The notes below the pieces were generated by a model, which did no database searches, was not told the DNA's origin, and saw only the letters and a program-made list of their open reading frames with translations. A stretch of 64,000 bases of DNA, taken from assembly GCF_030691015.1 (NCBI RefSeq), contig NZ_JAUYFF010000004.1, positions 1-64,000 of the forward strand. The letters run 5' to 3'. The stretch comes from Sulfuricurvum sp. GTDB taxonomy: Bacteria > Campylobacterota > Campylobacteria > Campylobacterales > Sulfurimonadaceae. Shown one piece after another: positions 7,879-24,885 of the stretch (position 1 is its first letter; each line of letters starts with the position of its first letter). The position numbers and the translations under genes were made by a program.

Positions 7879-8089
7879 GTCAACAATCATTTGAATATTG
7901 CTAAAGTGGTACTGGGAACTATTAAAATGCTAGAGAAGTGGAGGATATATTTATTTTATTGATAATTTATCGCTTTAACAATCGAATTCTTTGAAATCTA
8001 TGTTATCATTAAAAACAGATCAAAAAAGTTAGTTATTAACCTAATTATTTTGTTGCTTAATGATACCTTTTTCTAATATAAGGAGTTCG

Positions 8090-10597
8090 ATGAAAGCTGT
8101 TGTGATGGCTGGTGGGTTTGGGACACGGATCCAACCGCTAACAAATTCTATCCCTAAACCTATGCTACCGATAATGAATCGTCCAATGATGGAACACACC
8201 ATAATGAGCCTTAGGGCTTTGGGAATTACCGACTTTATTGTTCTTCTATATTTTAAACCTGATGTTATTAAAGAGTATTTTAAAGACGGAAGCCAGTGGG
8301 GGATTAACATCACCTATGTTCTTCCGGATGATGATTATGGGACTGCGGGTGCCGTTAAAAAAGCCCAAGAGTTTATCGGTAAGGAAAATTTTATTATTAT
8401 CAGCGGTGATTTGGTCACCGATTTTGATTTTCAAAAAATATTCGATTATCATAACTCCAAAAAATCTAAACTTACTATTACCCTGACCTCTGTTGATAAT
8501 CCGCTTGAATTTGGAGTTGTTATCGCCAACAAAGAGGGGAAAATCGAAAAATTTCTTGAAAAACCGAGTTGGGGAGAGGTATTTAGCGATACGATCAATA
8601 CCGGAATTTATATTATAGAACCGGAAATTCTTGACTACATCCCCAATAATGAAAATTTTGATTTTGCAAAAGACCTTTTCCCCCTCCTTATGCGTAAAGG
8701 GATAGATTTAATGGCGGGATATGCACAAGGGTACTGGCGTGACGTCGGAAATCCTGAGAGCTACCGTGATGTCTATGAGGATCTTCTCAGCGGGAAAATA
8801 AAGCTGAATCTGGGTGGAGAAGCGGTTAAGTATATTGATGGTGTTCTTATTTGCGAAGAAGACAATACCCTCGATGAAAGTGTCGAAGTAATCGGGATCG
8901 TTGTCATCGGGAAGAATGTAACGGTTAAGAAAGGGACGAAACTTAACAACGTTGTTATTGGAGACAATGTCACCATAGGAAGTTCGTCCAAAGTGTGCAA
9001 CACGGTTATATGGAATGACGTTGTGATCGGACGCAATGCCAAACTTGACGGATGTGTCATTTGTAACAACAACCATATCGGCAAAAATGTGACGGCAAAA
9101 TCAGGATTGATTTTAGCGGAGGGGTGCGAACTCGGTGAATTGGTCATGGTTGAAAAAGATGTCACCATTTGGCCGGACAAAGTGATCGAAGATGCCTCTA
9201 TCGTTAGCCGAAGCGTTATTTTGGGGAGTAAATATAAGAATTCTATTTTTGAAAACGGGATGGTTATCGGAAAGGCAAATGTTGAAATATCCTGTGAGAT
9301 GGCGACCAAACTTGCCGAAGCATTCGGTGCGCAACTTCCTGTAGGTTCAACAGTTTTAGTATCGCGAGACAACAGTAAAAGTTCTCGTATGCTTAAGCGT
9401 GCTTTTTTAGGGGGACTTCTTTCCTCAGGGATGAATGTTTTGGATTACAATGCGGTATCGTCTCCTGTAATGCGGTGCAGCCTCTCTTCACATGAGGAAT
9501 ACGGTGCGGGTGTTCATGTGAATCAAAAGCTTGACGATCCTACCAGTGTTGTCATTACGTTTTACAATGAAGAAGCGTTGCGGATCAATACCGAGGTAGC
9601 AAAAAAAGTGGAGAAAGCATTTTTTAAAGAGACTTTCCGTCGCGTTGATTACTCACGAATCGGACAAATTTATAATTCGGATCACCAAAAAGAGTACAAA
9701 GAGTACCAAAAAGGGATGGAAGATCTGTTAAAGTCACATATGTTTAAGTGCCTTGATTGCCGCGTTGCCGTTGATATGATGCACGGGATGGCATCAGAAG
9801 TTTTCCCTACTGTCCTTAACGATTTGGGGGTAGATCATATTATGTTTAATGCCCATCCTGATGAGCGCCGTTTGGAAAACATCAATACCCTCACAAAATC
9901 GACAAATGATGACATGAGTGCGGTCATTAAAGCGTTGAACCTCGATGCAGGATTTATGATTTATCCCCATGGACAGCGTTTGGAAATGATGTGCGATAAA
10001 GGGATACTTCTAAGCAAACAGTCTGCCCTTTATGCCGTATTGACACTGTTGAATATGGAAGCAGAAAATTTAGGTGTTAAAAAACGGGTATTCTTGCCGA
10101 CATGGGCTGCTGATCTTGTTACTTTTAATCATCTTGAGATTGAATACGGGCAGTATGCGAATTTCAAATCAGAAAAAATGAAAAGTTATGATCTTGTCAC
10201 TACGGGGGAGGGTAATTACGCATTTACCGAATTTTCTACCCATCGTGATTCGATGTACGCGACACTTAAAATCTTGGAGATGATCGTTAACCATCAGGTT
10301 AAACTTTCTGAAATCATGGAAACTATGCCGCGCTTTTATTATCACTCTTTTCAGGTTTCGTGCAAACAGTCGCAAAAAGGGAAAATGATGCGTATGTTTT
10401 TAGAAGATGCCAAAGATAAGGAATCCTCAACGCTCGACGGGGTCAAAATATGGCTCGATAAGCATGATTGGATTCTAATGATACCCGATCAGTACAATGA
10501 TCACCTCAATCTCTACATTCAAGCAAAAAATCAGATAGCCGGTGAAAAAATTCATCAGATGTACACACGTAAAATTGAGGAATGGATGGCCTCTTAA
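8090..10597 (+). CDS. Sugar-phosphate nucleotidyltransferase fused to a degenerate phosphomannomutase domain
   Basis: An 835-residue fusion. Residues 1-235 are an NTP-transferase domain with GGFGTR (8-13) and K23, as in mannose-1-phosphate guanylyltransferases and glucose-1-phosphate nucleotidyltransferases. Residues about 250-370 are hexapeptide repeats forming a left-handed beta helix. The rest resembles a phosphomannomutase/phosphoglucomutase, but active-site loops are altered. Where TASHNP is expected there is VNQKLDDP (about 477-484). The DGDGDR metal loop is replaced by YPHGQR (625-630), and the sugar loop reads GEGNYAF. The mutase half is therefore probably non-catalytic and perhaps regulatory. 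The ATG at 8090 follows an AAGGAG site. It is the first gene of the glycogen operon; the nucleotide used (GDP, ADP or UDP) cannot be told from sequence. Confidence 0.85.
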   Translation: MKAVVMAGGFGTRIQPLTNSIPKPMLPIMNRPMMEHTIMSLRALGITDFIVLLYFKPDVIKEYFKDGSQWGINITYVLPDDDYGTAGAVKKAQEFIGKENFIIISGDLVTDFDFQKIFDYHNSKKSKLTITLTSVDNPLEFGVVIANKEGKIEKFLEKPSWGEVFSDTINTGIYIIEPEILDYIPNNENFDFAKDLFPLLMRKGIDLMAGYAQGYWRDVGNPESYRDVYEDLLSGKIKLNLGGEAVKYIDGVLICEEDNTLDESVEVIGIVVIGKNVTVKKGTKLNNVVIGDNVTIGSSSKVCNTVIWNDVVIGRNAKLDGCVICNNNHIGKNVTAKSGLILAEGCELGELVMVEKDVTIWPDKVIEDASIVSRSVILGSKYKNSIFENGMVIGKANVEISCEMATKLAEAFGAQLPVGSTVLVSRDNSKSSRMLKRAFLGGLLSSGMNVLDYNAVSSPVMRCSLSSHEEYGAGVHVNQKLDDPTSVVITFYNEEALRINTEVAKKVEKAFFKETFRRVDYSRIGQIYNSDHQKEYKEYQKGMEDLLKSHMFKCLDCRVAVDMMHGMASEVFPTVLNDLGVDHIMFNAHPDERRLENINTLTKSTNDDMSAVIKALNLDAGFMIYPHGQRLEMMCDKGILLSKQSALYAVLTLLNMEAENLGVKKRVFLPTWAADLVTFNHLEIEYGQYANFKSEKMKSYDLVTTGEGNYAFTEFSTHRDSMYATLKILEMIVNHQVKLSEIMETMPRFYYHSFQVSCKQSQKGKMMRMFLEDAKDKESSTLDGVKIWLDKHDWILMIPDQYNDHLNLYIQAKNQIAGEKIHQMYTRKIEEWMAS

Positions 10598-12630
10598 TGG
10601 ATAAAAAACCTTTATCGCTTTCATTTTTCTGGCATATGCATCAGCCTGATTATCGAGGAAGTGACGGGGTTATGACTATGCCGTGGGTCTTTTTGCACGC
10701 CATAAAAGATTATTATGAAATGCCGTGGCTCGTGAGCCGATATCCCCATATCAAGGCAACTTTCAATCTGACAGCAACCCTTATGGAGCAGCTGGAACTT
10801 TACACGGATCCTCTAAAATACGATTATTTTCTATCCTTATGGGCAAAGTATCCTTCTGATCTCGACGTATTATCACGCCAATGGCTTATAAAACTGTGCA
10901 AATCGACCCAATTTGAAACTATGGTGAGGCCGATAAAACGGTATGAATATCTGTATGGCAAAAATGAGTACAGTGATGATGAGCTGATCGATTTAGAAGT
11001 CCTTTTTATGTTGGCATGGTGCGGAAACTGTCTCCGTAATGAAAACCTAATGGTTAAAGAGATGTTAGGTCGCGGAGAGGGATTTACTCAACATGATAAA
11101 GAGCGTCTTCTCGACGAGCTTTGCAGTTTTATCCAAACGATTATTCCGTTTTATGCCTCATTGCAGCAAGAAGGGCGTATTTCGGTCTCAACTACCCCCT
11201 ATTATCACCCGATTTTGCCACTTTTGATCGATATGGAAAATGCTTCTTTGGCCAATCCTCACACGGTACTTCCTCAACGTCCTATTTCATTGGTTGAGGA
11301 TGCACGACAGCATATTGAACGCTCCATTGCACTATACAAAAAACATTTCAAAAAAAAGCCGACAGGATTTTGGCCTGCTGAGGGTGCGGTAGATACGAAA
11401 AGTGTTGCCCTCTATCGCGAATACGGCGTGGAGTGGATTGCTACGGACGAAGCGATATTATTTCACACACTCGGGAATGAAAATCGAAAAGATCTTTATA
11501 AAACGTACAGCTTTAATGGTGTCACTATGGGGTTCAGAGACCATGGATTGAGTGATTTGATCGGTTTTACCTATCGGTTTAAAAGTGCTGAGGATGCGGT
11601 AAACCACTTTATCCATTCCGTTGAATCTATTTACAACGAACAAAGTGACCCTTCTGTTTTTGTGATTGTCGATGGAGAGAATGCATGGGAATTTTATGAG
11701 AATAACGGATTTGATTTTTTTAGCGCACTCTATTCACGTTTAGAGACAACACCGTGGTGCAAAAGCGTCACAATGGATGAGATGGCAAAAGGTAAAAATC
11801 ATATCGAATTGGAAACACTCCATCCCGGAAGTTGGATTCACGGTACATTTGATACGTGGTCAGGGCACCCCCAAAAAAATAGGGCGTGGGAACTGATTTT
11901 TCAGACCCGTCGGGATGCCGGAAATTTTAAAGGAGCCGTTTCAGATGATACGGCACGTAAAATTTCGGAACATTTTTTAGCATCGGAGTGCAGTGATTGG
12001 TTTTGGTGGTACGGTGATGATCATGTTAGTGATTTTGCTGTTGAATTTGATCTTCTGTTTCGAAACCATTTGATCGCAATATATGAGTTGTTGGAATTTG
12101 CACCCCCTGCAAATCTCTATCAACCGATCGTTACAATGGCAGATAGTGCCCCTTTTTGGGTCAAACCGCAATCTCCTCTTACCCCGATTATTGACGGTAA
12201 ATACTCCTCTTTTTTTGAGTGGCTGGGATGCGGAAGTATGGATGAACGAAAACTCTACTCCACCATGGACCGAGTACGCGGACCTATCGATACTCTCTAT
12301 TACGGTCACGATAAAAAAGCGATTTATGTAGCATTTGAGGGAAATGTTTCTAAAATAGACCGTCGTGATTTAAAACTTCTGGTTATATGCGAAGAGAACT
12401 CTGAGCAGTTTGAGTTTGATTTGGAGAGACTAACATCAGCTGAAAATGATAGGGTTGCACTCGATGAACGGCTCGAAATAGTCCTTTCACGATCTCATTT
12501 TGGAACGATGCGATTGTTTCATTTGCGATTTGAGCTAGTGAGCGGATCAAAAATACTGCAAACGATGCCCGGTAACGGAGCGCTTGTGATCGATTTGGAT
12601 GAGCATTATGCAGCCAACTGGTTTGTGTAA
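10597..12630 (+). CDS. GH57 glycoside hydrolase (alpha-amylase/amylopullulanase-like)
   Basis: A 677-residue glycoside hydrolase family 57 protein. Conserved region 1 is HMHQPDY (13-19). The likely nucleophile is E262 in GFWPAEGAVD and the likely acid/base is D359 in VDGENAW. Members cleave or transfer alpha-1,4 (some alpha-1,6) glucan bonds. Residues after about 500 form an extra beta-rich domain. The start ATG shares its A with the preceding stop (TAATG), indicating coupling; an in-frame ATG at 10582 has no properly spaced ribosome site. No signal peptide, so it acts on cytoplasmic glycogen. Confidence 0.88.
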   Translation: MDKKPLSLSFFWHMHQPDYRGSDGVMTMPWVFLHAIKDYYEMPWLVSRYPHIKATFNLTATLMEQLELYTDPLKYDYFLSLWAKYPSDLDVLSRQWLIKLCKSTQFETMVRPIKRYEYLYGKNEYSDDELIDLEVLFMLAWCGNCLRNENLMVKEMLGRGEGFTQHDKERLLDELCSFIQTIIPFYASLQQEGRISVSTTPYYHPILPLLIDMENASLANPHTVLPQRPISLVEDARQHIERSIALYKKHFKKKPTGFWPAEGAVDTKSVALYREYGVEWIATDEAILFHTLGNENRKDLYKTYSFNGVTMGFRDHGLSDLIGFTYRFKSAEDAVNHFIHSVESIYNEQSDPSVFVIVDGENAWEFYENNGFDFFSALYSRLETTPWCKSVTMDEMAKGKNHIELETLHPGSWIHGTFDTWSGHPQKNRAWELIFQTRRDAGNFKGAVSDDTARKISEHFLASECSDWFWWYGDDHVSDFAVEFDLLFRNHLIAIYELLEFAPPANLYQPIVTMADSAPFWVKPQSPLTPIIDGKYSSFFEWLGCGSMDERKLYSTMDRVRGPIDTLYYGHDKKAIYVAFEGNVSKIDRRDLKLLVICEENSEQFEFDLERLTSAENDRVALDERLEIVLSRSHFGTMRLFHLRFELVSGSKILQTMPGNGALVIDLDEHYAANWFV

Positions 12631-12647: not shown

Positions 12648-14693
12648 ATGTCTAAAACAGCACTTTTATTCGGGATACATATGCATCAGCCGGTGGATAA
12701 TTTCGACTGGGTCATTGAGCATGCGATAGCAGTATGTTATAAACCTTTCTTCGAGGTGATGAGCCGTTATCCCACCTTTTGTTTCAGTGTCCATTGCAGT
12801 GGATGGCTGATGGAGCAGATACAAATGCGTGATCCTGCGTTGTATCATCAGATTCAAAAGCTCTCCCAATCAGGGAGTATAGAATTCTTCAGTGCAGGGT
12901 ATTATGAACCGATTTTAAGTGTTATTCCCTCCCAAGATCGGGTTGCCCAGATCGAAAAACTTAACCGTTCTATCTCAGAATCATTCGGACAAATCCCAAA
13001 AGGGCTGTGGCTAACGGAGAGAGTATGGGAATCGTCGTTAATAACCGATTTGCATCGCAGTAAAATCGAGTATACGGTCATGGATGATTACCATTTTCAA
13101 TGTGCAGGATTTGATGAAGAGGTCCTCGATGGCTATTATATGAGCGAAGAGGGGGGTAAACGGATCGGAATCTTCCCCATCAGTAAAAAGCTTCGCTATG
13201 CTCTACCGTTTCAAAGCGTCGAGAATGCATTGAGTGCCATTAAAAGTTATACACGTGAAAACAATTCGGCTGCCATTATTTTTGACGATGCCGAAAAATT
13301 CGGTATGTGGCCCGGAACCCACGCATGGGTTTATGAAAAGCGATGGCTGGAAAAATTTGTTGAAGCCGTTTTAGCGGATGAAGCGATTGAACCGATTCAT
13401 TATGCGGAGTATTTCAAACAAAATAAGCCGCGAGGCCTCGCCTATGTTCCCAACGTCTCCTATTATGAGATGGGGGAGTGGAGTTTGAGTGCTGATGATG
13501 CTCTGCGACTTGAGCGGTACAAACAGGATATGGGGTTTGAGCAGTATGAAAAGGAGGGGGTGAAGTTTATCAAAGGGGGAATCTGGAAAAACTTCTTTGT
13601 TAAATATCCTGAGAGTAACCGTATTCATAAACGGATGTTGGAACTCTCCGAACAGCGCCCTGTTATTAATCGCAGTGATTTCGATACCGCCCTTTTTAAA
13701 CTTCAGACGAATGATCCGCTGTGGCATGGAGTTTTCGGAGGTCTCTATTTGCCGAACTTACGTGACACTGCCTATCGCTACCTCATCGAATGTGAAAACA
13801 TCCGATACGATAAAAGCAGTGTGATTGAGGCCAACAAGAATGAACTTGATGGATACGAGAAGGTTAAAGCACTGACGTCTGAGCTGATATTTCGATTTGA
13901 TAGCGCTTGCGGAGGACAGTTGGTTGAGTTTGATGTTCGCGATCGATGCTTCAATTATCAAAACACACTCACCCGCCGTAAAGAGGCGTATCATCAAAGA
14001 GTACTTGAACCGGTTACTATCACCTCTAAGGAAGAAAATCCGGCTGAAGACGGAATCGATACGATCCATACCGCGATAGCAGAAATGGACGATAGTTTAC
14101 GCGATGCGATTATCTATGACTGGTATCTTAAAAACTCGTTTATCGATCATATCAGTGACGAAACGTTTGACACGGAATGTTTTCGTCACTGTAACTTTAG
14201 AGAATACGGGGATTTTACCAATCAGCCTTTTGAATCGAAATGGAATCAACACTCCATCACCTTTTCACGTCACGGCGGGCTATATTTCCCCGAAAAAGTG
14301 GAAGCGTTTTTAGAAAAACAGTACGTTCCTCATGATAATTCTCTCGATTTTGAGATAAAGTTTACGAGTAAAGCAACAGAGAAATTGTTCTATATAGTGG
14401 AGCATAATTTACATTTTTCCAATGTCGATGAAGTACTTCTAAACGGATTGAGCGTCGAAGAAGAGGGGGAGATAGCGTTATGTTCAAGAGTCGAAATTAT
14501 CGATCGCGTTCTCGGGAAAAAGATAACCCTCTCCCTAAGCCAGCCGTCTCATATCCATTATTTTCAACTCAAAACCCTTTCTCAAAGTGAGCAAGGATTT
14601 GATTTAACGGTTCAGGGGATCAGTTTTGCGTTCGGCTTTGATTTTGTAGGCTCTTTTGCCCTTAAAGGAACGATGGAGATAGTCAATGTCTGA
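12648..14693 (+). CDS. GH57 4-alpha-glucanotransferase
   Basis: A 681-residue GH57 protein with the layout of Thermococcus litoralis 4-alpha-glucanotransferase. HMHQP is at 11-15, the nucleophile is E124 in WLTERVWE, and the acid/base D214 is in FDDAEKFGMWPGT. The DUF1925 middle and DUF1926 C-terminal beta-sandwich regions follow. It should disproportionate maltodextrins during glycogen build-up or breakdown. AAAGGA precedes the ATG by 7 nt. It overlaps the next gene by 8 nt. It differs clearly from the preceding GH57 gene, so the two are not a recent duplication. Confidence 0.9.
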   Translation: MSKTALLFGIHMHQPVDNFDWVIEHAIAVCYKPFFEVMSRYPTFCFSVHCSGWLMEQIQMRDPALYHQIQKLSQSGSIEFFSAGYYEPILSVIPSQDRVAQIEKLNRSISESFGQIPKGLWLTERVWESSLITDLHRSKIEYTVMDDYHFQCAGFDEEVLDGYYMSEEGGKRIGIFPISKKLRYALPFQSVENALSAIKSYTRENNSAAIIFDDAEKFGMWPGTHAWVYEKRWLEKFVEAVLADEAIEPIHYAEYFKQNKPRGLAYVPNVSYYEMGEWSLSADDALRLERYKQDMGFEQYEKEGVKFIKGGIWKNFFVKYPESNRIHKRMLELSEQRPVINRSDFDTALFKLQTNDPLWHGVFGGLYLPNLRDTAYRYLIECENIRYDKSSVIEANKNELDGYEKVKALTSELIFRFDSACGGQLVEFDVRDRCFNYQNTLTRRKEAYHQRVLEPVTITSKEENPAEDGIDTIHTAIAEMDDSLRDAIIYDWYLKNSFIDHISDETFDTECFRHCNFREYGDFTNQPFESKWNQHSITFSRHGGLYFPEKVEAFLEKQYVPHDNSLDFEIKFTSKATEKLFYIVEHNLHFSNVDEVLLNGLSVEEEGEIALCSRVEIIDRVLGKKITLSLSQPSHIHYFQLKTLSQSEQGFDLTVQGISFAFGFDFVGSFALKGTMEIVNV

Positions 14694-15696
14694 AATAAGG
14701 TACGATCGCCTCCATGATACCCACGTCCTTATAGCACCTGAGAGACTCCGTCATCCGGATGTTCCCCTTAGTGAGAGTGACGCCTTTGTGGGTGAACCAT
14801 GTCCGTTTTGTGAAGGGAATGAAGGGATGACCCCTCCTGAAATCTTTGCGCACCGCTCTGAGGGGAGTTTTCCGAATGAAGGGGGATGGGAGACTCGTGT
14901 TGTCCCCAATCTTTTTAAAGCAGTCCAGCTTGAAACCCCTCCTCATCACCATTTCGGATTATTTGAGTATTGGGAAGGATTTGGCGCCCATGAAGTGATT
15001 ATCGATACTCCGCGTCACACTACTTCGATGTCTGAGTGGAGCGAATCTGACGCGGTTTCTTGGCTTAAAACCCTTCGTCAGCGAGTCGGAGATTTGCGCC
15101 GTGATCAACGGTTGGCCTATCTCTCTTTATTTAAAAATGAAGGAAGAAATGCGGGCGCGACGATGAGCCATTGTCATACACAGTTGATCGGTCTTCCGAT
15201 GATTCCAAAAAATTGTGGAGAGATTTATCGAAGGTCGTATGAGTATTTTCAAACCAACGGCCATGCCCTGATGGAGTCTATACTCCAACATGAAGAGGAA
15301 ACAGGGTGTAGGGTTATTGAAAAAAAGGGAGAGTTTACCGCATTTTGCCCTTATGCGAGTACCTATCCTTTTGAAGTGATGATCAGTTCGATGAAAGAAG
15401 CGGGGCAAATCGATACCCTGAGCCGCACCCGCATTGAAACAGTTGCTTCACTTTTAGTCTCAACACTACAGCGGCTAAAGCGGCAACTGGGGGTATTTCA
15501 TTTTAACCTATGGGTGTCTACACCCCCTTTGATCGAAAACGAAGGGATCGGTTCGGCAGATTTGTGTCGTTTTACGATTCGTATTATGCCGCGTCTTTAT
15601 CAATTCGGTGGATTTGAACACACGACGGGCATTGTGATCAATCCGGTTACACCTGAGTTGGCGGCAAAATTATTACGGGAGAGCACACATGAATAA
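14686..15696 (+). CDS. galT: Galactose-1-phosphate uridylyltransferase-like enzyme
   Basis: A 336-residue HIT-superfamily nucleotidylyltransferase. Zn ligands C39 and C42 are in CPFC. The nucleotidylated histidine motif is HCHTQ (H162, H164, Q166). GalT exchanges UMP between UDP-glucose and galactose-1-phosphate. In an operon of glycogen enzymes without other galactose genes, a related ADP- or UDP-glucose phosphorylase activity is equally possible. It overlaps both neighbours by 8 nt, so it is firmly part of the operon. Confidence 0.85.
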   Translation: MSEIRYDRLHDTHVLIAPERLRHPDVPLSESDAFVGEPCPFCEGNEGMTPPEIFAHRSEGSFPNEGGWETRVVPNLFKAVQLETPPHHHFGLFEYWEGFGAHEVIIDTPRHTTSMSEWSESDAVSWLKTLRQRVGDLRRDQRLAYLSLFKNEGRNAGATMSHCHTQLIGLPMIPKNCGEIYRRSYEYFQTNGHALMESILQHEEETGCRVIEKKGEFTAFCPYASTYPFEVMISSMKEAGQIDTLSRTRIETVASLLVSTLQRLKRQLGVFHFNLWVSTPPLIENEGIGSADLCRFTIRIMPRLYQFGGFEHTTGIVINPVTPELAAKLLRESTHE

Positions 15697-17110
15697 AAAA
15701 CGTATGTTGTTCGCGTCAAGCGAAGTTTACCCCTTTGTTAAAACGGGAGGGCTGGCAGATGTTTCCCATTCGCTTCCTAGGGCGTTGAATGAGAGTTATG
15801 CGGTGAGTGTCGTATTACCCCTCTACAGCTCCATCGACCGTAAACAGTTTAAAATCAAACCTATCGAATCGTTTGAGATTGCTATGGGTGGTTCCTTGTA
15901 TGCGGTTGAAGTGTATGGAACGATCTATGAGAACGTAGCGTATCGCTTTATCTATGCGCCCTTGCTGTGTGATCGGGAGTTTTTGTATGGTCCTCCTGAG
16001 TGCGGGTATGAGGATAACGCTCTTCGATTCGGACTCTTCTCGTATGCTATCGCCGAATTGCTACGACGTGAGAAATACGCGATTGCCCATCTAAACGATT
16101 GGCAGTGTGCACTGGCCGCGCTTTTAATAAAGGAAGATAGCACGCTAGAGACGAAGTGCGTGTATACCATCCATAATTTAGCGTATCAAGGGGTATTTCC
16201 CCCTTCGCTATTGCCACAAATCGGTATTAATGAGAGTTATTTCACTATGGATGCGCTTGAGTTTTACAATCAGGTCAATTTTATGAAAGCGGGAATTGCG
16301 TACGCTGATGCCGTTACAACCGTAAGCCCTACCTACGCAAAAGAGATTTTAACGCCAGAATTCGGATGCGGACTGGAAGGATTTTTACACGTTCATCGCC
16401 GTAAACTGAGCGGGATCATAAACGGAATCGATCCGGATCATTTTTCCCCTTCGTGTGATGAGGCATTGGTTGAGAAGTACACCAATGCCAAAGGGAAGAA
16501 AAGCTCAAAAAGCGATCTTTTGAAGCAGTTGGGGCTTAAAGGCTCTAGTAAACCCCTTTTTGCCTTTATCGGTCGTTTCACCCATCAAAAAGGGATCGAT
16601 ATTTTGGTGGAATCTCTACCGAAAATTGCTCAGATGGAGTGCAATGTCGTATTGCTGGGAGAGGGAGAAGAGGGGTATCGTGACGCACTTGCCTCTCTCT
16701 CTGAGGGTTACGGTAATCTCCATTTGAGCTTCGGATATGATGAAGTAATTTCACATAGGATGTACGCGGCGGCCGATTTCTTGCTAATGCCCTCACTCTT
16801 TGAACCATGCGGGCTGAACCAGATGATCGCCTATGCCTACGGAGCCGTTCCGATAGTGAATAAAGTGGGGGGATTGGCTGATACGGTGAAAAAAGTTGAA
16901 TCATACGATGAGAATACTCCATTTGGATACGGAGTAGTGTTTACCTCGCCGACCTCACGTTCTTTGGTCGCGGCGGTGAAAAAATCGTGTGAACTCTACA
17001 GTGATAAAAAACACTTTGAAGCCGTTGTCAATCACAATATGAAATGCGATTTTTCATGGAGTGAAAGTGCCAAAGCATACGAAGGGATCTATGCGAGACT
17101 CTCGAAGTGA
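15689..17110 (+). CDS. glgA: Glycogen synthase, copy 1
   Basis: A 473-residue GT5 glycosyltransferase. The N-terminal K18-TGGLADV loop binds the nucleotide sugar, and EPCGLNQM with VGGLADTV forms the C-terminal donor-binding site. It elongates alpha-1,4-glucan from ADP-glucose (bacterial type) in the cytoplasm. It starts 8 nt inside galT and its stop overlaps the next gene as GTGA. A second, distinct synthase is encoded 0.8 kb downstream. Confidence 0.93.
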   Translation: MNKKRMLFASSEVYPFVKTGGLADVSHSLPRALNESYAVSVVLPLYSSIDRKQFKIKPIESFEIAMGGSLYAVEVYGTIYENVAYRFIYAPLLCDREFLYGPPECGYEDNALRFGLFSYAIAELLRREKYAIAHLNDWQCALAALLIKEDSTLETKCVYTIHNLAYQGVFPPSLLPQIGINESYFTMDALEFYNQVNFMKAGIAYADAVTTVSPTYAKEILTPEFGCGLEGFLHVHRRKLSGIINGIDPDHFSPSCDEALVEKYTNAKGKKSSKSDLLKQLGLKGSSKPLFAFIGRFTHQKGIDILVESLPKIAQMECNVVLLGEGEEGYRDALASLSEGYGNLHLSFGYDEVISHRMYAAADFLLMPSLFEPCGLNQMIAYAYGAVPIVNKVGGLADTVKKVESYDENTPFGYGVVFTSPTSRSLVAAVKKSCELYSDKKHFEAVVNHNMKCDFSWSESAKAYEGIYARLSK

Positions 17111-17946
17111 AAAAACTTTTTATCGATATCGGCGGCACCCATCTTCGAGGTGAAATAGAGAGTGAAGAGGGTAGCTTCCGTGATACTATCAGCTCTCACG
17201 AGATGGGGTTGTTGACTTATATTGATACACAAATGGCTCTTCATCCCCAAATCGATTTTATAGGTATCTCCTATGCAGGACAGGTCAACAAGGGGGTTAT
17301 AGCGGCTTCCCCTAATATTAATATTGATAAATATGATATTGTCGCGGAGATAAAATCCCGTTATGGGATACGCTCTTGTATCGATAATGATCTCAACTGT
17401 GCCGTTCGTGCTGAAGCCTCATACTGGAAATCAGACAGTATTGCCGCGTTATTTGTCGGAACGGGTATCGGTGCGGCGGTGATTGATGAGGGGGGATTGG
17501 TACGTGGCAGCCGCAATATGGCGTACGAAATTGGACATATTCCTTATCGAGAATCGCCGCTTCACTGCGGATGCGGACGAAGCAACTGCATCGAGCTCTA
17601 TGCATCAGGATCTGGGATGGAAAAATGGCTAAAGTATTACGGCAGTGAAAAGCCCCCTTATTTAGAGAGTCTAAAAACATCAAACACCGATGAACACGCT
17701 GTTGCCACCCAATTTGAAGAGGCATTTCTTTATGCGGCAGGAGTCTTAGTCACCCTTGCCAATCCTGAGATTTTGGTGATTGGGGGAGGGGTAATAGATC
17801 AGAACCCTTATTTGGTTACACTGTTACGAGAAAAAATAAATCATTATGCCTTGGCTCCTGCATTGGAAGGGCTACGTATTGAGATGAGCGTATTAGAAAA
17901 TGCTCCATTAGAGGGGGCAAAATTGTTGGAGGATGATAATGGATAA
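17107..17946 (+). CDS. ROK-family glucokinase
   Basis: A 279-residue ROK kinase. The ATP site is DIGGTHLRG (7-15), and the zinc motif CGCGRSNC (C154, C156, C161) is followed by IELYASG. GTGIGA and a C-terminal IGGGV phosphate loop are present. No N-terminal helix-turn-helix, so an enzyme rather than a repressor. It would phosphorylate glucose released by the alpha-glucan enzymes of the operon. The GTG start overlaps the glgA stop by 4 nt. Confidence 0.88.
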   Translation: MKKLFIDIGGTHLRGEIESEEGSFRDTISSHEMGLLTYIDTQMALHPQIDFIGISYAGQVNKGVIAASPNINIDKYDIVAEIKSRYGIRSCIDNDLNCAVRAEASYWKSDSIAALFVGTGIGAAVIDEGGLVRGSRNMAYEIGHIPYRESPLHCGCGRSNCIELYASGSGMEKWLKYYGSEKPPYLESLKTSNTDEHAVATQFEEAFLYAAGVLVTLANPEILVIGGGVIDQNPYLVTLLREKINHYALAPALEGLRIEMSVLENAPLEGAKLLEDDNG

Positions 17947-19417
17947 ATTGAAGCTACTGATTGCCGCCTCAGAGGTCGTCCCGTTCGCTAAAAGCGGCGG
18001 ATTGGCGGATGTCGCAGGCGCGCTCCCTAAAGCACTTCGTGCCTTGGGACATGATGTCCGCATCGTTATGCCGCGCTATTACAGTGTGGATCGTGAAAAA
18101 TATGCCCTAAAAATGATGCACGGTTCTCTTGGTGTCCCGATGGGGGCATTCGGTGAACTGTGGGCCGGTGTCTATGAGGGGACACTCCCCGGCACCGATA
18201 TTCCGGTCTATTTTATCGAGCATGAGGGATTTTTCGGGCGCGGTGGATTGTATGAGGAGAATGGATTTAGCTATTTGGATAACGACACACGGTTTATCTT
18301 TTTCTCCCGTGCCGTGATGCAGCTTGCCAAAAAACTCCGATTTCATCCCGATGTCATCCACGCAAACGACTGGCATACCGCTTCCATTGCGATGATGCTC
18401 AACACCCATTATGCCTATGATGGCGATTTCGCCTATACCGGATCGCTTTTAACTATCCACAATCTTCAGCATCAAGGTCACTTCAGCAAAGGGGCAATGG
18501 ATGTTTTGGATATCGGATGGGAACATTTCAATGCCGATGAGATCGAAGAGTATGATGGGGTCAATCTTCTCAAAGCGGGGATAGTTCACGCCGATGCCAT
18601 CAGTACCGTAAGCCGAAAATATGCACAGGAGATACGGACTCACGAGTTTGGATGGGGATTGGAGCGATTGATTGATACGAATGCCTATAAGCTTCAGGGG
18701 ATTCTTAACGGTGTCGATTATGATGAATGGAGCCCTGCTGTTGATCCCTTTATCGCACAGAGCTTCGAGTGTGACTCAATGGAGGGGAAAAAAGTGTGTA
18801 AGCGTGCCTTGCAGAACACCTTTGGACTTCCGCAGCGCGATGATGTTCCCGTGATCGGTATGGTAGGAAGACTCGTGGAGCAAAAAGGGATCGAACTGAT
18901 TGTCCACTCGATTCATGCGCTGATGCAGATGGAGATTCAAATCGTCCTTCTCGGTGCGGGAGAAAAATGGGCAGAACATTTTTTCAGCGATATCTGCGGA
19001 CGATATCCCCATAAATTCGGCTGTTATATCGGATATCGCAACGATCTGGCGCACCAAATCGAAGCGGGAAGCGATCTCTTTTTGATGCCCTCGCTGTTTG
19101 AGCCGTGCGGACTAAACCAAATCTACTCTCTGCGCTACGGAACACTCCCTATCGTTCGGGGTACGGGCGGGTTGGATGACACGATTGAAAATTATGCCAA
19201 TGACTCTATGCATGGGACAGGGTTCAAATTTTACGATGCGACACCGGATGCATTGATCAATACCGTAGGTTGGGCTGTGTATACGTGGTACAATGATGCG
19301 CAAGGGTTTTCACAAATGCAGCGTAATGCGATGGAGAGACGATTTGATTGGAATGGAGCGGCAAAAGAGTATGAAGCACTTTACTATCATATTAAAGCGG
19401 GGAGAAGGGGAGAATGA
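17939..19417 (+). CDS. glgA: Glycogen synthase, copy 2
   Basis: A 492-residue GT5 synthase with K18-SGGLADVAGALPKAL at the N-terminus and EPCGLNQI ... GTGGLDDTIENY at the C-terminus, closer to the classical bacterial GlgA than copy 1. GGAGG at 17928-17932 is six bases before the ATG at 17939, so this start is preferred over the ATG at 17933 that touches the ribosome site. It overlaps the kinase gene by 8 nt and glgB by 4 nt. Two synthases in one operon suggest different primers, donors or regulation. Confidence 0.93.
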   Translation: MDKLKLLIAASEVVPFAKSGGLADVAGALPKALRALGHDVRIVMPRYYSVDREKYALKMMHGSLGVPMGAFGELWAGVYEGTLPGTDIPVYFIEHEGFFGRGGLYEENGFSYLDNDTRFIFFSRAVMQLAKKLRFHPDVIHANDWHTASIAMMLNTHYAYDGDFAYTGSLLTIHNLQHQGHFSKGAMDVLDIGWEHFNADEIEEYDGVNLLKAGIVHADAISTVSRKYAQEIRTHEFGWGLERLIDTNAYKLQGILNGVDYDEWSPAVDPFIAQSFECDSMEGKKVCKRALQNTFGLPQRDDVPVIGMVGRLVEQKGIELIVHSIHALMQMEIQIVLLGAGEKWAEHFFSDICGRYPHKFGCYIGYRNDLAHQIEAGSDLFLMPSLFEPCGLNQIYSLRYGTLPIVRGTGGLDDTIENYANDSMHGTGFKFYDATPDALINTVGWAVYTWYNDAQGFSQMQRNAMERRFDWNGAAKEYEALYYHIKAGRRGE

Positions 19418-21360
19418 ATAATATCCAACACTGTCCTATAACGTATGAAGTGTCAAGACTGAGTGAGCTTGATATCTATTTGTTTAAACAAGGCAATCAC
19501 ACCAAACTCTATGAAAAGCTCGGATCACATACCATGGTTTCTGAGGGGAAAGCAGGGGTGTATTTTGCAGTGTGGGCACCTAATGCTGCACGTGTAAGCG
19601 TACGGGGCGATTTTAACCATTATCATACCGATTCACATCCTCTGAAGTTGCGCGAAGATGAATCGGGTATCTGGGAGGGGTTTATTGCGGGAGTAGAGCA
19701 AGGGCTTACCTACAAATATCATATTGTTTCAAAATACCATGATATCGTCCATGATAAAAGTGATCCTTTCGGTTTTTATGCGGAAGAACCGCCGAAATCG
19801 GCTTCACGGGTTTGGAGTTTAGAAGGATACGGCTGGAGTGATACTACGTGGATGGAGGAACGCTACCTCCATAATGCTCATGATGCACCGGTCAGTGTCT
19901 ATGAGATGCATGTCGGTTCATGGAGACGCAAGGTTGAGGAAAATAACCGTTTTCTTACCTATCGGGAACTTGCGGTAGAGTTGGTGGCGTATCTGAAATC
20001 GATGAACTATACCCATGTCGAATTTATGCCCCTTACCGAATATCCCTATTTCGGTTCATGGGGATATCAGGTAGTAGGCTATTTTGCCGCTACGGCACGT
20101 TTTGGGACGCCGCAGGATTTGATGTACTTGATCGATGTACTGCATCAAAACGGTATCGGAGTGATTATGGACTGGGTACCGTCGCATTTTGCGGTGGATA
20201 TGCACGGGTTGATAAATTTTGACGGTACTGCCCTTTATGAGCACGATGATCCGCGTCAGGGGTACCATCCTGAATGGGGAAGTATCATCTTTAATTACGG
20301 GCGGAATGAAGTACAGTCGTTTTTGATCAGCTCGGCAATGTTTTGGTTGGATAAATATCACATCGACGGTATTCGTGTCGATGCGGTTGCCTCGATACTG
20401 TATCTCAACTATGCAAGAGAAGAGGGGGAATGGATACCTAACATCCATGGTGGGAATGAAAATCTTGAAGCGATTGAGTTTTTGAAAAAACTCAATATTA
20501 GTGTCTACGGGGAATTTTCCGATATTTTGATGATTGCCGAAGAATCAACCGCCTATCCGATGGTAACTCGGCCGGTAGATGTCGGAGGGCTTGGGTTCGG
20601 ATTCAAATGGAGTATGGGGTGGATGCACGATTCGCTCAAATACATGAGTTATGATCCGATTTATCGTCAGCATCACCACCATCAGCTTACCTTTAGTATG
20701 TGGTATGGGTTTGATGAGAACTTTATGCTGCCGCTGAGTCACGATGAGGTCGTTCACATGAAAGGCTCACTCATCAACAAAATGCCCGGTGACACGAATC
20801 AGAAATTTGCCCATTTACGCTCATTATATGCATATATGATGGGACACCCCGGCAAAAAACTTCTCTTTATGGGGGGTGAAATTGCCCAATTCGCAGAGTG
20901 GAGTTTTGAACGCTCCCTTGATTGGCATCTGTTGGAATATCCTCTCCATAGAGGTTTAAATAAAATGGTCTCTGATCTCAATACCCTCTATAAAAATGAG
21001 CGTGCATTGCATCTTTATGATGAAAAACGTGAAGGGTTTGAGTGGATCGATGATCGCGATTCCAGCCATAACTGTATCAGTTTTATCCGTAAAAGCGATA
21101 TTTCGGATGAGAGTGTTTATGTGGTGTGTAATTTTGCGGATCATGTGAGAGAAAATTACTGTTTAGGTGTACCGTATGAGGGGGAATATGTTGAAATTTT
21201 CAATTCCCAATCGTCCTATTACGAGGGGTGGAATATTGGAAATACAGGACCTTTGCAATCAGAGGAGAGGGTGATGCATGGACGTCCTTACACCTTAACA
21301 TTAACGCTGCCTCCATTGGGCGTACTGTATCTCAAACGAAATGCAGATAAAAATAATTAA
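19414..21360 (+). CDS. glgB: 1,4-alpha-glucan branching enzyme
   Basis: A 648-residue GH13 branching enzyme. An N-terminal CBM48 is seen (VYFAVWAPNAARVSVRGDFN), followed by the catalytic barrel: DWVPSHF, GIRVDAVAS (nucleophile D323), IAEEST (acid/base E376 or E377) and SHDEVVH (D444). A C-terminal beta domain ends the protein. It introduces alpha-1,6 branches into glycogen. The start overlaps glgA copy 2 by 4 nt. A second GH13 protein with branching-enzyme-like features is encoded convergently at 23075-24862. Confidence 0.95.
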   Translation: MNNIQHCPITYEVSRLSELDIYLFKQGNHTKLYEKLGSHTMVSEGKAGVYFAVWAPNAARVSVRGDFNHYHTDSHPLKLREDESGIWEGFIAGVEQGLTYKYHIVSKYHDIVHDKSDPFGFYAEEPPKSASRVWSLEGYGWSDTTWMEERYLHNAHDAPVSVYEMHVGSWRRKVEENNRFLTYRELAVELVAYLKSMNYTHVEFMPLTEYPYFGSWGYQVVGYFAATARFGTPQDLMYLIDVLHQNGIGVIMDWVPSHFAVDMHGLINFDGTALYEHDDPRQGYHPEWGSIIFNYGRNEVQSFLISSAMFWLDKYHIDGIRVDAVASILYLNYAREEGEWIPNIHGGNENLEAIEFLKKLNISVYGEFSDILMIAEESTAYPMVTRPVDVGGLGFGFKWSMGWMHDSLKYMSYDPIYRQHHHHQLTFSMWYGFDENFMLPLSHDEVVHMKGSLINKMPGDTNQKFAHLRSLYAYMMGHPGKKLLFMGGEIAQFAEWSFERSLDWHLLEYPLHRGLNKMVSDLNTLYKNERALHLYDEKREGFEWIDDRDSSHNCISFIRKSDISDESVYVVCNFADHVRENYCLGVPYEGEYVEIFNSQSSYYEGWNIGNTGPLQSEERVMHGRPYTLTLTLPPLGVLYLKRNADKNN

Positions 21361-21408: not shown

Positions 21409-23052
21409 ATGATATTACACGATTACGAATACGATTCGAAATACACAAAGAGTATCGCCTATTTTTCGATGGAGTTCGCTATTCATCAAGGGCTTAAAAT
21501 CTATTCGGGGGGGCTTGGTTTTTTATCCGGCTCACATATGAGAAGTGCGTATGATCTACGTCAAAACGTTGTAGGTGTCGGTATTTTGTGGAGTTTCGGT
21601 TATTACGATCAAACTCGCAGCCCTGATCGCAGTCTCAAAGCGGAATTCGTCCGAAAACATTACTATTTTCTCAAAGATTTGGGCATTCAGGCGAAAGTAA
21701 TGATCCATTCCCAAGAGGTGTATGTCAAAGCTTTTTACCTCTCTCCCGATGTTTTCAGCTCCGCTCCGTTGATATTGCTCTCTACCGATATCCCTGAAAA
21801 CGACTTTTTGGCACGTACTATCACCCACAAACTTTACGATGCCAATGAAGAGACCCGAATTTCGCAAGAGATTATTTTAGGGATCGGCGGAGTTAAGGTT
21901 CTCGAAGCGCTTAAGCAAACCATTGATATCTATCACATGAATGAGGGGCACGCATTGCCACTTGTTTTTGAACTGTATGCTAAATACAAGAATATGGATG
22001 AAGTAAAAAAACGAGTTGTCTTTACTACCCATACTCCTGAAGACGCGGGAAATGAGCAGCACAATATCGATTTACTCCATAAGTTCGGTTTCTTCAACGG
22101 TTTAGAATTGGATACGGTTCGTTCCATTATGAAGATGGAAAATGAGCAAAATTTTAATCTCACGGTAGGGGCATTGCGTTCGTCTAAAATTACCAACGGT
22201 GTCTCCAAATTTCACGGAGAAGTGGCGAACCGCATGTGGAGGGATTGCGAAGGGCGTTCTGAAATTATTCATGTCACAAATGCACAAAATCGCCGTTTTT
22301 GGACCGATAAAGAGTTACTGGCGGCATTGGATGATCATGAAGATTATGAAATCATTAGCCGTAAAAAACATCTTAAGAGAACCCTGTTTACCGTCGTCGC
22401 CGATCAGACCGGAAAGATGTTTAATCCTGATGTTCTGACCATTGTTTGGGCACGCCGATTTGCGGAATACAAACGTCCCGGACTTATTAAATACGATCTT
22501 GCCCGATTTAAAAAGCTCCTTCAGCGTACCGAAGAACCGATCCAGATTATTTGGGCGGGTAAACCTTATCCGTTTGATACCAATGCAATCAATGTTTTCA
22601 ATGAGCTGATCCATATCAGCCATGATTATCCGAATATGGCAGTGTTAGTCGGCTATGAGCTTGATCTCTCCAGAATGCTCAAAAAAGGCTCAGACGTATG
22701 GCTCAATACTCCGCGTGTATCACGAGAAGCAAGTGGAACAAGCGGTATGACGGCGAGTATGAACGGCTCTATTCATTTCTCTACGGATGACGGATGGCAC
22801 CCTGAATTTGCCAAACATACGATCAACTCGTTTACCATTCCACCGATTGACCACAGTCAGCCGATCGAGCTTCAGGACGCCGAAGACAATAAAAATATGA
22901 TGGACATACTCGAAAACGAGATTATTCCGATGTATTATAATAAGCAAGAGCAATGGACGCAGATGATGAAAAATGCGATGGCGCATGTTATCCCCGCATT
23001 TGATTCCGGTCGTATGGCACATGAATACTACACCAAAATGTATGACGCTTAG
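21409..23052 (+). CDS. Short alpha-glucan phosphorylase-like GT35 protein lacking the PLP lysine
   Basis: A 547-residue protein of the short alpha-glucan phosphorylase type: YFSMEFAIHQGLKIYSGGLG at the N-terminus, GVSKFHGEVANRMW, and RRFAEYKRPG. Glycogen phosphorylases bind pyridoxal phosphate through a lysine in SGTSGMK or SGTGNMK. Here the motif reads SGTSGMTASMNG, with T448 (codon ACG at 22750-22752) in the lysine position. The rest of the domain is intact. It is either an unusual, PLP-independent glucan-binding or transferase protein, or inactive. AAGAAGAAG precedes the ATG. About 550 residues is short compared with 800+ for the classical enzymes. Confidence 0.82.
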   Translation: MILHDYEYDSKYTKSIAYFSMEFAIHQGLKIYSGGLGFLSGSHMRSAYDLRQNVVGVGILWSFGYYDQTRSPDRSLKAEFVRKHYYFLKDLGIQAKVMIHSQEVYVKAFYLSPDVFSSAPLILLSTDIPENDFLARTITHKLYDANEETRISQEIILGIGGVKVLEALKQTIDIYHMNEGHALPLVFELYAKYKNMDEVKKRVVFTTHTPEDAGNEQHNIDLLHKFGFFNGLELDTVRSIMKMENEQNFNLTVGALRSSKITNGVSKFHGEVANRMWRDCEGRSEIIHVTNAQNRRFWTDKELLAALDDHEDYEIISRKKHLKRTLFTVVADQTGKMFNPDVLTIVWARRFAEYKRPGLIKYDLARFKKLLQRTEEPIQIIWAGKPYPFDTNAINVFNELIHISHDYPNMAVLVGYELDLSRMLKKGSDVWLNTPRVSREASGTSGMTASMNGSIHFSTDDGWHPEFAKHTINSFTIPPIDHSQPIELQDAEDNKNMMDILENEIIPMYYNKQEQWTQMMKNAMAHVIPAFDSGRMAHEYYTKMYDA

Positions 23053-23074: not shown

Positions 23075-24862
23075 TTATTGCGAAAAAATTACTACGCTGT
23101 AAGCGCCGATAGAAACCGAAGCATAAGAGGGTAGGCCATCACACGCACCTTCATTTGCGACAATATCGGTACTGGGATGGTTGCTAAAATCGTCATTGTA
23201 CCCTTCCCAATCACTATTGAAGCGGAGTTTCCAAGCTCCCTCACTCGGAAATCCTATGACGTAGTCTTGCTGTGCCTCATGTGAGAAATTTGCAACGATC
23301 ACAACATCATCCGATGCACCCCCCTTGTCCCAGCGATGATATGCAATAACTTTGCGTTCATTGTTCAGATGGTACACCTGTGTAAACTGCCCGCACAAAC
23401 CGCGTGTAAAGCCCTCACGATTGCTGCGCAACCGTATAATATCTCGGTACAAGCGGACGATTCCGTGAAACTCGGCACATTGATCCCAATCAACAGGAAC
23501 CGTATCACGAAACCATCCCCCCTCTAGGAACTCTTGACCTTGGAAAAGCATAGGTATACCGGGTGAGGTGAAGACCATTGCGGCGGCCAAGGTTGAACGT
23601 TTTCGTGCGTACCACCCTTTGGGGTCATTCGGATTGATCTCTTGGGGTACACGCGCATGGCCGTTTGCTACCTCATCGTGCGATTCGCTGTAAATAACCC
23701 GATCAAAGGCATCATCGTTGTAGCGGTATAAGATGGCATCACGGATGGCATCGAGGGATCGTTGCTCGTCTTGGGGTGTAATAACCGCTTGACGTATGGG
23801 ATGGACAAACATAGCGTCCCACTGAGAGGCGAATCCGGCTCCGCCGGCTCCGACTTCTTTTGTGAGCCATCTATTGTTTTGAAGGTCTTCAGCGATGGTG
23901 ACCCGACCGGGAAATTTCTGTGTGATTTGGCTATTGATCCATTGGAGTAGGCTCCACCCCTCAGGAATATCCTGCTTATCTGAATCATTGACCATGCGGA
24001 TAAATTGGGTACAGTCGAAGCGGATTCCGTCTACATGGTACTCCTCCAGCCACATCATGGCATTATCCAAGAGGTACTGACGAACCTCTCCCCGTCCGTA
24101 ATCGGGTCTGGTATCTCCCCATGGGGTGTGTGCTCTATCATCGTTATAAAAATAGATTCCTCCAAGAGCGTTTTCGCTCCAGCCGTCAAACTGCCACAGA
24201 TCCAGATCACTGGGGCCAAGGTGGTTGTACACAACATCCAATATCACTGCAATACCTGCTTGATGGGCACGCTTGATAAACTGCTTAAACGCCAACGGAC
24301 CACCGTAATCGCGTTCTACCGAAAAAATATGGGCAGGGTTATATCCCCATGAGCTTTCACCCGCGAACTCCCCTATCGGCATAATCTGTATCGCATTGAT
24401 ACCGAGCTTTTTCAAATGTCCCAGACGTGCGGATACCGATGAAAATTCCCCCTGAGTGATAGCATCTTCTTGATCATTAAACGTCCCGACATGCAGTTCG
24501 TAGATGACAAGTTCATTCCAAGGGACGATGCTAAAATCATCCCCCTGCCAGTCAAAACGGGTATCGTGAACGATGGCATTGCCGATCGAGCCTGTCACTT
24601 CACGGGCATAGGGATCTATCCGTTTGAACTCACCTTCAGGCGTTGTGAGGAGAAACAGATACTCATCACCTGCATGGGCTTCAGCGATATTGGCGTACCA
24701 ATACCCGTTTTCCTCACTCTGCATAGAGTGCTTGGTTCCATCCCATTCGTTAAATGATCCGATAACGGATACGTGTTGTGCATGGGGTGCCCATACGCGA
24801 AAAGCCACTCCATGCGTGTGTAGAATCGATCCCATCCCCTTGATGATAGTTTCATGGCTCAT
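23075..24862 (-). CDS. GH13 alpha-glucan enzyme, branching-enzyme/alpha-amylase type
   Basis: A 595-residue GH13 protein. An N-terminal CBM48 (FRVWAPHAQHVSVIGSFNEW) is followed by the TIM barrel: DVVYNHLG, GIRFDCTQ (D283 nucleophile), IAEDLQNN (E325) and SESHDEVANG (D396). A C-terminal amylase-type beta domain follows. The combination looks like branching enzymes or maltooligosyl-trehalose trehalohydrolases; substrate is uncertain. The ATG at 24862 is preferred. A GTG at 24895 is possible and would overlap the pyruvate kinase-like gene by 10 nt. It converges on the glycogen operon. Confidence 0.8.
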   Translation of the reverse strand: MSHETIIKGMGSILHTHGVAFRVWAPHAQHVSVIGSFNEWDGTKHSMQSEENGYWYANIAEAHAGDEYLFLLTTPEGEFKRIDPYAREVTGSIGNAIVHDTRFDWQGDDFSIVPWNELVIYELHVGTFNDQEDAITQGEFSSVSARLGHLKKLGINAIQIMPIGEFAGESSWGYNPAHIFSVERDYGGPLAFKQFIKRAHQAGIAVILDVVYNHLGPSDLDLWQFDGWSENALGGIYFYNDDRAHTPWGDTRPDYGRGEVRQYLLDNAMMWLEEYHVDGIRFDCTQFIRMVNDSDKQDIPEGWSLLQWINSQITQKFPGRVTIAEDLQNNRWLTKEVGAGGAGFASQWDAMFVHPIRQAVITPQDEQRSLDAIRDAILYRYNDDAFDRVIYSESHDEVANGHARVPQEINPNDPKGWYARKRSTLAAAMVFTSPGIPMLFQGQEFLEGGWFRDTVPVDWDQCAEFHGIVRLYRDIIRLRSNREGFTRGLCGQFTQVYHLNNERKVIAYHRWDKGGASDDVVIVANFSHEAQQDYVIGFPSEGAWKLRFNSDWEGYNDDFSNHPSTDIVANEGACDGLPSYASVSIGAYSVVIFSQ

Positions 24863-24885
24863 GGTTTTATTCTTCTTTGAAAGGG

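Follow-up and report, generated by a model that had tools for sequence, protein, structure and literature searches.

Glycogen phosphorylase is defined by the lysine that binds PLP, and the question raised by the present locus is what a protein of this family might do once that lysine has been replaced. The locus belongs to a window of 64,000 nucleotides from Sulfuricurvum sp., this being the whole stretch of DNA that was analysed, and consists of an unbroken reading frame at 21409..23052 on the forward strand, whose 547 translated codons specify a short-form GT35/TIGR02094 protein without the PLP lysine, as assigned from the frame and its profile scores. The 547-aa protein passed the model for the alpha-glucan family phosphorylases (TIGR02094) with 455 bits against a cut-off of 191.7 and PF00343 with 56 bits against 27, while the scores of 46 bits for the canonical glycogen phosphorylases (TIGR02093, cut-off 552.9) and 35 bits for the GT5 glycogen synthases (TIGR02095, cut-off 328.45) both failed. 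The phosphate-binding R/K-R...K motif is present as Arg349, Arg350 and Lys355, together with the two loops GG(L)G and GTSG, found as GGLG at residues 34-37 and GTSG at 443-446.

In an alignment with the phosphorylases of the PDB, the position of the PLP Schiff-base lysine, which is Lys680 in the rabbit enzyme and Lys646 in E. coli MalP, is taken by Thr448, encoded by the codon ACG at 22750..22752 (+). This threonine stands opposite a lysine that is invariant in the PDB phosphorylases and in 55 GT35 homologues. The 55 are made up of 46 distant TIGR02094 proteins, a pair of short-form relatives that share one Bacteroidota genome, and seven canonical enzymes, and each of them carries lysine at the position of residue 448. 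Among the 111 close homologues, which come from Campylobacterota and Bacteroidota and exceed 45% identity to the query, the residue is threonine in 78, serine in 31 and alanine in two, and it is lysine in none. The original prediction had located the missing lysine at this very codon and had suggested comparing homologues there; the alignment agrees with the assignment, and the comparison returned T, S or A in 111/111. A sequencing error at 22751 was rejected on account of the varied codons found in independent homologues (ACG, ACT, ACA, AGT, TCA and GCA) and of the complete lack of lysine among the 111. Similarly, a decaying pseudogene was rejected in view of the 111 homologues, their several codons and a dN/dS of about 0.03, and the chance that Thr448 reflects either cause is considered vanishingly small. 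The pairwise dN/dS values with the nearest relatives are 0.025-0.038, compared with 0.052 in the single GlgB comparison, and the frame, which had been described as intact from the outset, is indeed intact and under strong purifying selection.

The extent of this group was explored by scanning 84,980 species genomes with peptide patterns derived from the query protein, which yielded 60 relatives, and further members were collected by genome-wide searches in Campylobacterota and Bacteroidota. No certain member was encountered in other phyla in this one peptide-pattern scan of the 84,980 genomes, which distant members could escape. On the tree, the non-lysine sequences form one clade with an SH-aLRT of 100 that is explained by a single state change, and the Campylobacterota members cluster together within it. 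The nearest kin of the clade are the TIGR02094 proteins that retain the lysine (hereafter K-type), the exact point of attachment being uncertain owing to the long branches around the clade. As judged from its sequences, the clade is a subfamily of the known family GT35 from which the defining family feature is missing. The suspicion that similar short forms exist in Bacteroidota was substantiated by the genome searches, as was the bolder proposal of a whole unrecognised subfamily, since the clade spans both phyla. A description of GT35 proteins without the PLP lysine was nowhere found in the literature, a negative that is weak because subscription papers lay largely outside the search.

The loss at position 448 is accompanied by a gain elsewhere. 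Lys425 (22681..22683, +), a new lysine on a helix near the cofactor pocket and a candidate replacement anchor by alignment and model, is present in 111/111 clade members and in 0/55 of the other GT35 sequences, which have V, I, M, L or T instead. The exchange is reciprocal and without exception in the 166 aligned sequences: either Lys448 occurs without Lys425, or Lys425 occurs with a small residue at 448. In the AlphaFold2 model, Lys425 is located on helix 418-427, seven residues past Leu418. We take Tyr648-Val650 of the rabbit enzyme, at the start of the helix matching 418-427, to be PLP contacts, and helix order together with these assumed contacts makes Lys425 a candidate neighbour of the cofactor pocket. 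It stands out among many changes, which cluster away from the glucose and phosphate sites: about 25 positions are fixed in the non-lysine clade and different in other GT35 proteins. Ser421, one turn before Lys425, and Glu417 are fixed in this clade only, and the latter closes the segment Gly415-Tyr416-Glu417 (22651..22659, +), in which a GT5-like GY replaces the N/D-Y of phosphorylases.

The residues that should handle the sugar and the phosphate have been kept, where the role of each aligned site is taken from what is established for rabbit phosphorylase and E. coli MalP. The Gly34-Gly35-Leu36-Gly37 loop (21508..21519; rabbit 134-137), the active-site histidine His208 (22030..22032; rabbit His377) and the glucose contact Asn291 (22279..22281; rabbit Asn484), all on the forward strand, are 100% conserved in all groups. 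The phosphate-binding pair Arg349-Arg350 (22453..22458, +), matched by motif to rabbit Lys568-Arg569, is conserved at 99-100% in the clade, the pair being RR in the K-type and KR in canonical phosphorylases, and the phosphate-binding Lys355 (22471..22473, +; rabbit Lys574, MalP Lys540) is 100% conserved in the three groups. The glucose- and phosphate-binding loop running from Glu440 through Ala-Ser-Gly-Thr-Ser to Gly446 (22726..22746, +; rabbit Glu672 to Asn678 in the alignment) reads EASGTSG almost invariantly in both the non-lysine clade and the K-type, and EASGTGN in canonical enzymes. According to the alignment, the glucose site (His208, Asn291, Glu440, Ser442, Gly443) and the phosphate site (Gly34-Gly35, Arg349, Arg350, Lys355, Thr444, Ser445) are thus essentially invariant in the clade. 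In E. coli MalP, PLP is carried on Lys646 and its phosphate is held by Lys534 and Lys540 (PMC11046441).

The AlphaFold2 model (pLDDT 88.6, built from 33 sequences) displays a GT-B fold with two Rossmann-like domains and matches GT35 and GT5 chains alike at Z 30-34. Its closest solved structure is the glycogen phosphorylase of Segatella copri (PDB 9l6i; Z 34, 535 residues aligned), and since this lysine-bearing enzyme also heads the sequence matches to solved structures, the clade itself is without a solved structure. With 9l6i, a TIGR02094 protein with the PLP lysine, the query shares its fold at 33% identity, the residues of the glucose and phosphate sites and EASGTSG; it differs from the K-type in the T/S/A that replaces Lys448, the gained Lys425, some 25 further changed positions, the lack of the N-terminal extension and a shorter middle region. 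Canonical GT35 enzymes of the TIGR02093 type, such as rabbit phosphorylase and MalP, have in common with it the GT-B fold (Z about 30), the Arg/Lys phosphate site and the Glu, His and Asn of the glucose site, whereas identity falls to about 20% and the PLP lysine, the W/Y-Q motif and the K394 equivalent are absent from the query. The clade also lacks the phosphorylase-specific equivalents of Trp75, Gln76, Asp125, His294 and Lys394, and scores 33-46 bits with the canonical phosphorylase model versus 74-115 for K-type relatives. GlgA of GT5 resembles the query in the GT-B fold (Z about 30.5), the GY...S/A...GSD helix motif and the Arg/Lys phosphate pair, but is merely 14-17% identical and possesses a KTGGL lysine that the query does not. 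The similarity of the modelled fold leaves PLP and a nucleotide undiscriminated as ligands.

The gene follows a glycogen operon, as had been remarked, and the genes preceding it on the same strand extend from an NDP-sugar transferase fusion to GlgB. The series comprises an NDP-sugar nucleotidyltransferase fused to a phosphogluco/mannomutase (8060..10597; PF00483 and PF02878-80), a GH57 glucan-active enzyme (10582..12630; PF03065, 176 bits), a second GH57 protein of the alpha-amylase/4-alpha-glucanotransferase type (12648..14693; PF03065, PF09094 and PF09095), a divergent GalT-like hexose-1-phosphate uridylyltransferase (14686..15696), a first GlgA of GT5 (15689..17110; TIGR02095, 499 bits), a glucokinase-like sugar kinase of the ROK family (17107..17946), a second GlgA (17933..19417; TIGR02095, 534 bits) and, immediately upstream of the GT35 gene, the branching enzyme GlgB (19414..21360; TIGR01515, 852 bits). 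The GalT-like gene reaches 88 and 70 bits, under the family cut-offs. The operon also holds two different GlgA genes with the ROK kinase between them, and GlgA duplication is common in Campylobacterota carriers. The host genome, which is 99.99% complete, contains neither a second GT35 nor a GH77.

Across Campylobacterota, TIGR02094 proteins were detected in 35 of 249 genomes, 20 of which have the non-lysine type only, ten both types, four the lysine type only and one a broken gene. The broken copy (genome G053, locus L118, G053:C1:448000-466000, about 8571-10120) is interrupted by stops or frameshifts and is evidently a decaying phosphorylase gene. The two types lie within one cluster in four of the ten genomes that carry both. 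Over all searches, by contrast, the 56 genomes with the non-lysine type and without the K-type proved to have no other GT35, whether their glycogen is made through GT5, GT3 or GlgE. GlgA accompanies the gene in 30/30 Campylobacterota carriers, versus 0/9 relatives of the same family without GT35. In the 67 Campylobacterota loci the gene is surrounded by genes of glycogen metabolism and upper glycolysis, GlgA and GlgB among them, whose families were verified by a check. Pgi is its immediate upstream neighbour in 24 loci; elsewhere in the neighbourhood, Pgm occurs in 21, Pfk in 18, an NDP-sugar transferase in 29 and GH57 in 25. Moreover, a ROK kinase and the lysine-less GT35 constitute one uninterrupted frame in six loci (L024, L025, L028, L029, L034 and L049), which suggests a bifunctional protein.

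In the 296 Bacteroidota genomes, 33 have the non-lysine type, 222 another GT35 and none both, an exclusion that is confounded by phylogeny; conserved neighbours of the gene were looked for in this phylum and none were found. GlgA is present in 25 of 37 Bacteroidota carriers, and six of the 12 without it have a GT3 synthase. GlgE-type genes were recognised near the branching enzyme in four GlgA-less carriers (G302, G399, G439 and G371), two of them through Pfam and two by eye, within branching-enzyme neighbourhoods only. The notion that the protein must be a glucan synthase where GlgA is missing is weakened by these six GT3 and four GlgE-type genomes. Five carriers (G329, G364, G447, G252 and G253, loci L230-L234) possess a GBE-type branching enzyme, but in them no GlgA candidate passes the cut-off and GT3 gave no match. 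Most Bacteroidota carriers, those without a full GlgA included, encode proteins of some 270 aa whose similarity to GlgA is confined to its N-terminal half (about 110-155 bits), for example at G253:C22:513465-514139 and G252:C16:117240-117902.

Taken together, the conserved catalytic residues indicate that the lysine-less protein is probably an active enzyme of glycogen metabolism, and its genomic context argues that it holds the metabolic place of a glycogen phosphorylase. The reading we tentatively prefer, with a probability of about 0.4, is phosphorolysis in which PLP is re-anchored on Lys425 or bound non-covalently. The enzyme would take glucosyl units from the ends of glycogen or maltodextrin and pass them to phosphate, the product would feed Pgm, Pgi and Pfk, and the catalytic phosphate would still reside in the PLP-phosphate subsite. 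In the simplest form, PLP would be attached to Lys425, one helix over, with Thr, Ser or Ala at 448 making room, or would be held without a covalent bond, and the reaction would remain phosphorolysis. The 448/425 swap, the invariant catalytic and phosphate sites, the low dN/dS and the single clade appear to support this reading. It is also supported by the status of the protein as sole GT35 of its genomes, its co-occurrence with GlgA, the GT3 or GlgE of GlgA-less carriers, the Pgi/Pgm/Pfk neighbours, the ROK fusions and a phosphorylase as nearest fold (Z 34). The further loss of phosphorylase-specific residues, with the fall in canonical model score, counts against it, as do the solitary gene of Bacteroidota and the phylogenetic confounding of mutual exclusion there; in the ten Campylobacterota genomes the protein is no simple substitute, because both GT35 types are present. 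The original prediction held that the protein cannot work in the usual way and may be free of PLP, which the sequence does not compel: because the phosphate and glucose residues are kept and Lys425 probably adjoins the pocket, PLP bound through another lysine, an outcome that the prediction itself had listed as a refutation, is a live possibility.

The same emptied pocket may be read differently. A PLP-free, NDP-sugar-dependent GT35 would accommodate the nucleotide in the vacated PLP site, the distal phosphate of the sugar nucleotide (ADP- or UDP-glucose) occupying the former place of the PLP phosphate, and would extend a glucan or, in reverse, shorten it in the manner of GT5 and GT3. The helix motif GYELxLSxxLKKGSD, with GY, S/A and GSD as in GT5 and Gly415 in place of the phosphorylase N/D, lends itself to this proposal, and the model fits closed GT5-ADP complexes (Z 30.5-30.8) nearly as well as MalP (Z 31). 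An NDP-sugar transferase adjoins the gene in many loci, and the five Bacteroidota carriers in which neither GlgA nor GT3 was recognised would gain a synthase. However, most carriers already own GlgA (often in two copies), GT3 or GlgE, and since the protein takes the place of a phosphorylase even beside them, such a transferase is not the first choice. Furthermore, the lysine of the GT5 K-S/T-G-G-L loop is absent, the query having Tyr32-Ser33-Gly34-Gly35 with Tyr32 at 100% in the clade, as in the K-type; profile comparison disclosed no closer overall likeness to GT5 than K-type phosphorylases show; and residue 448 is always small, though a vacated site need not be. A nucleotide-sugar reaction, although the chief rival, is considered rather unlikely. 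It would fit the proposal of a review that an NDP-sugar enzyme gave rise to GT35 when PLP took over from the nucleotide (PMC11046441). That the clade represents a present-day form of, or a reversion to, such an ancestor, PLP-free and using an NDP-sugar or an NDP acceptor, is a slightly more doubtful extension.

Two other departures from PLP chemistry were weighed. Inorganic phosphate or pyrophosphate could sit in the PLP-phosphate subsite, or water or a sugar (phosphate) could serve as the glucosyl acceptor, with release of glucose for the fused glucokinase. The intact phosphate sites are compatible with such a PLP-free enzyme with another cofactor or none, as are the ROK fusion and the adjacency of Pgi, both partners handling glucose 6-phosphate; pyridoxal-reconstituted phosphorylase is reportedly known from classical studies with added oxyanions. 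We nevertheless hold it to be improbable. Scarcely less so is a pseudoenzyme that has no catalytic role and binds glucan or acts as a regulator, perhaps of GlgA, GlgB or the glucokinase. The absence of a supposedly essential residue and the K-type paralogue alongside in ten Campylobacterota genomes speak for it, but the residues contacting glucose and phosphate are invariant over two phyla, the protein is the sole GT35 in most carriers, and purifying selection is strong. Given that these binding residues are intact, a mere relic is unlikely, and the pure glucan-binding regulator that had also been envisaged at the start is disfavoured by the complete conservation of catalytic residues.

The lysine-less form is carried by 33/296 Bacteroidota (about a tenth) and 30/249 Campylobacterota genomes sampled and is automatically annotated as phosphorylase, a database name that for this clade denotes a predicted reaction; the label glycogen phosphorylase is premature. 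If the lysine has moved to another helix, the clade would offer a rare and directly testable relocation within an active site, and if a PLP enzyme works without PLP, it would bear on the evolution of phosphorylases from nucleotide-sugar transferases. Either outcome would alter the reading of glycogen breakdown in the carrier genomes.

Downstream of the GT35 gene and convergent with it, the window contains a GH13 protein (23075-24895, reverse strand) that scores 299 bits as GlgB and 272 bits as TreZ, below both cut-offs. If it were TreZ, its TreY partner would be lacking, because the GH13 loci of the host genome are only two, namely GlgB and this one. A pyruvate kinase on the reverse strand (24886-26322) has about 110 N-terminal residues beyond the usual model, like the PRK14725 type.
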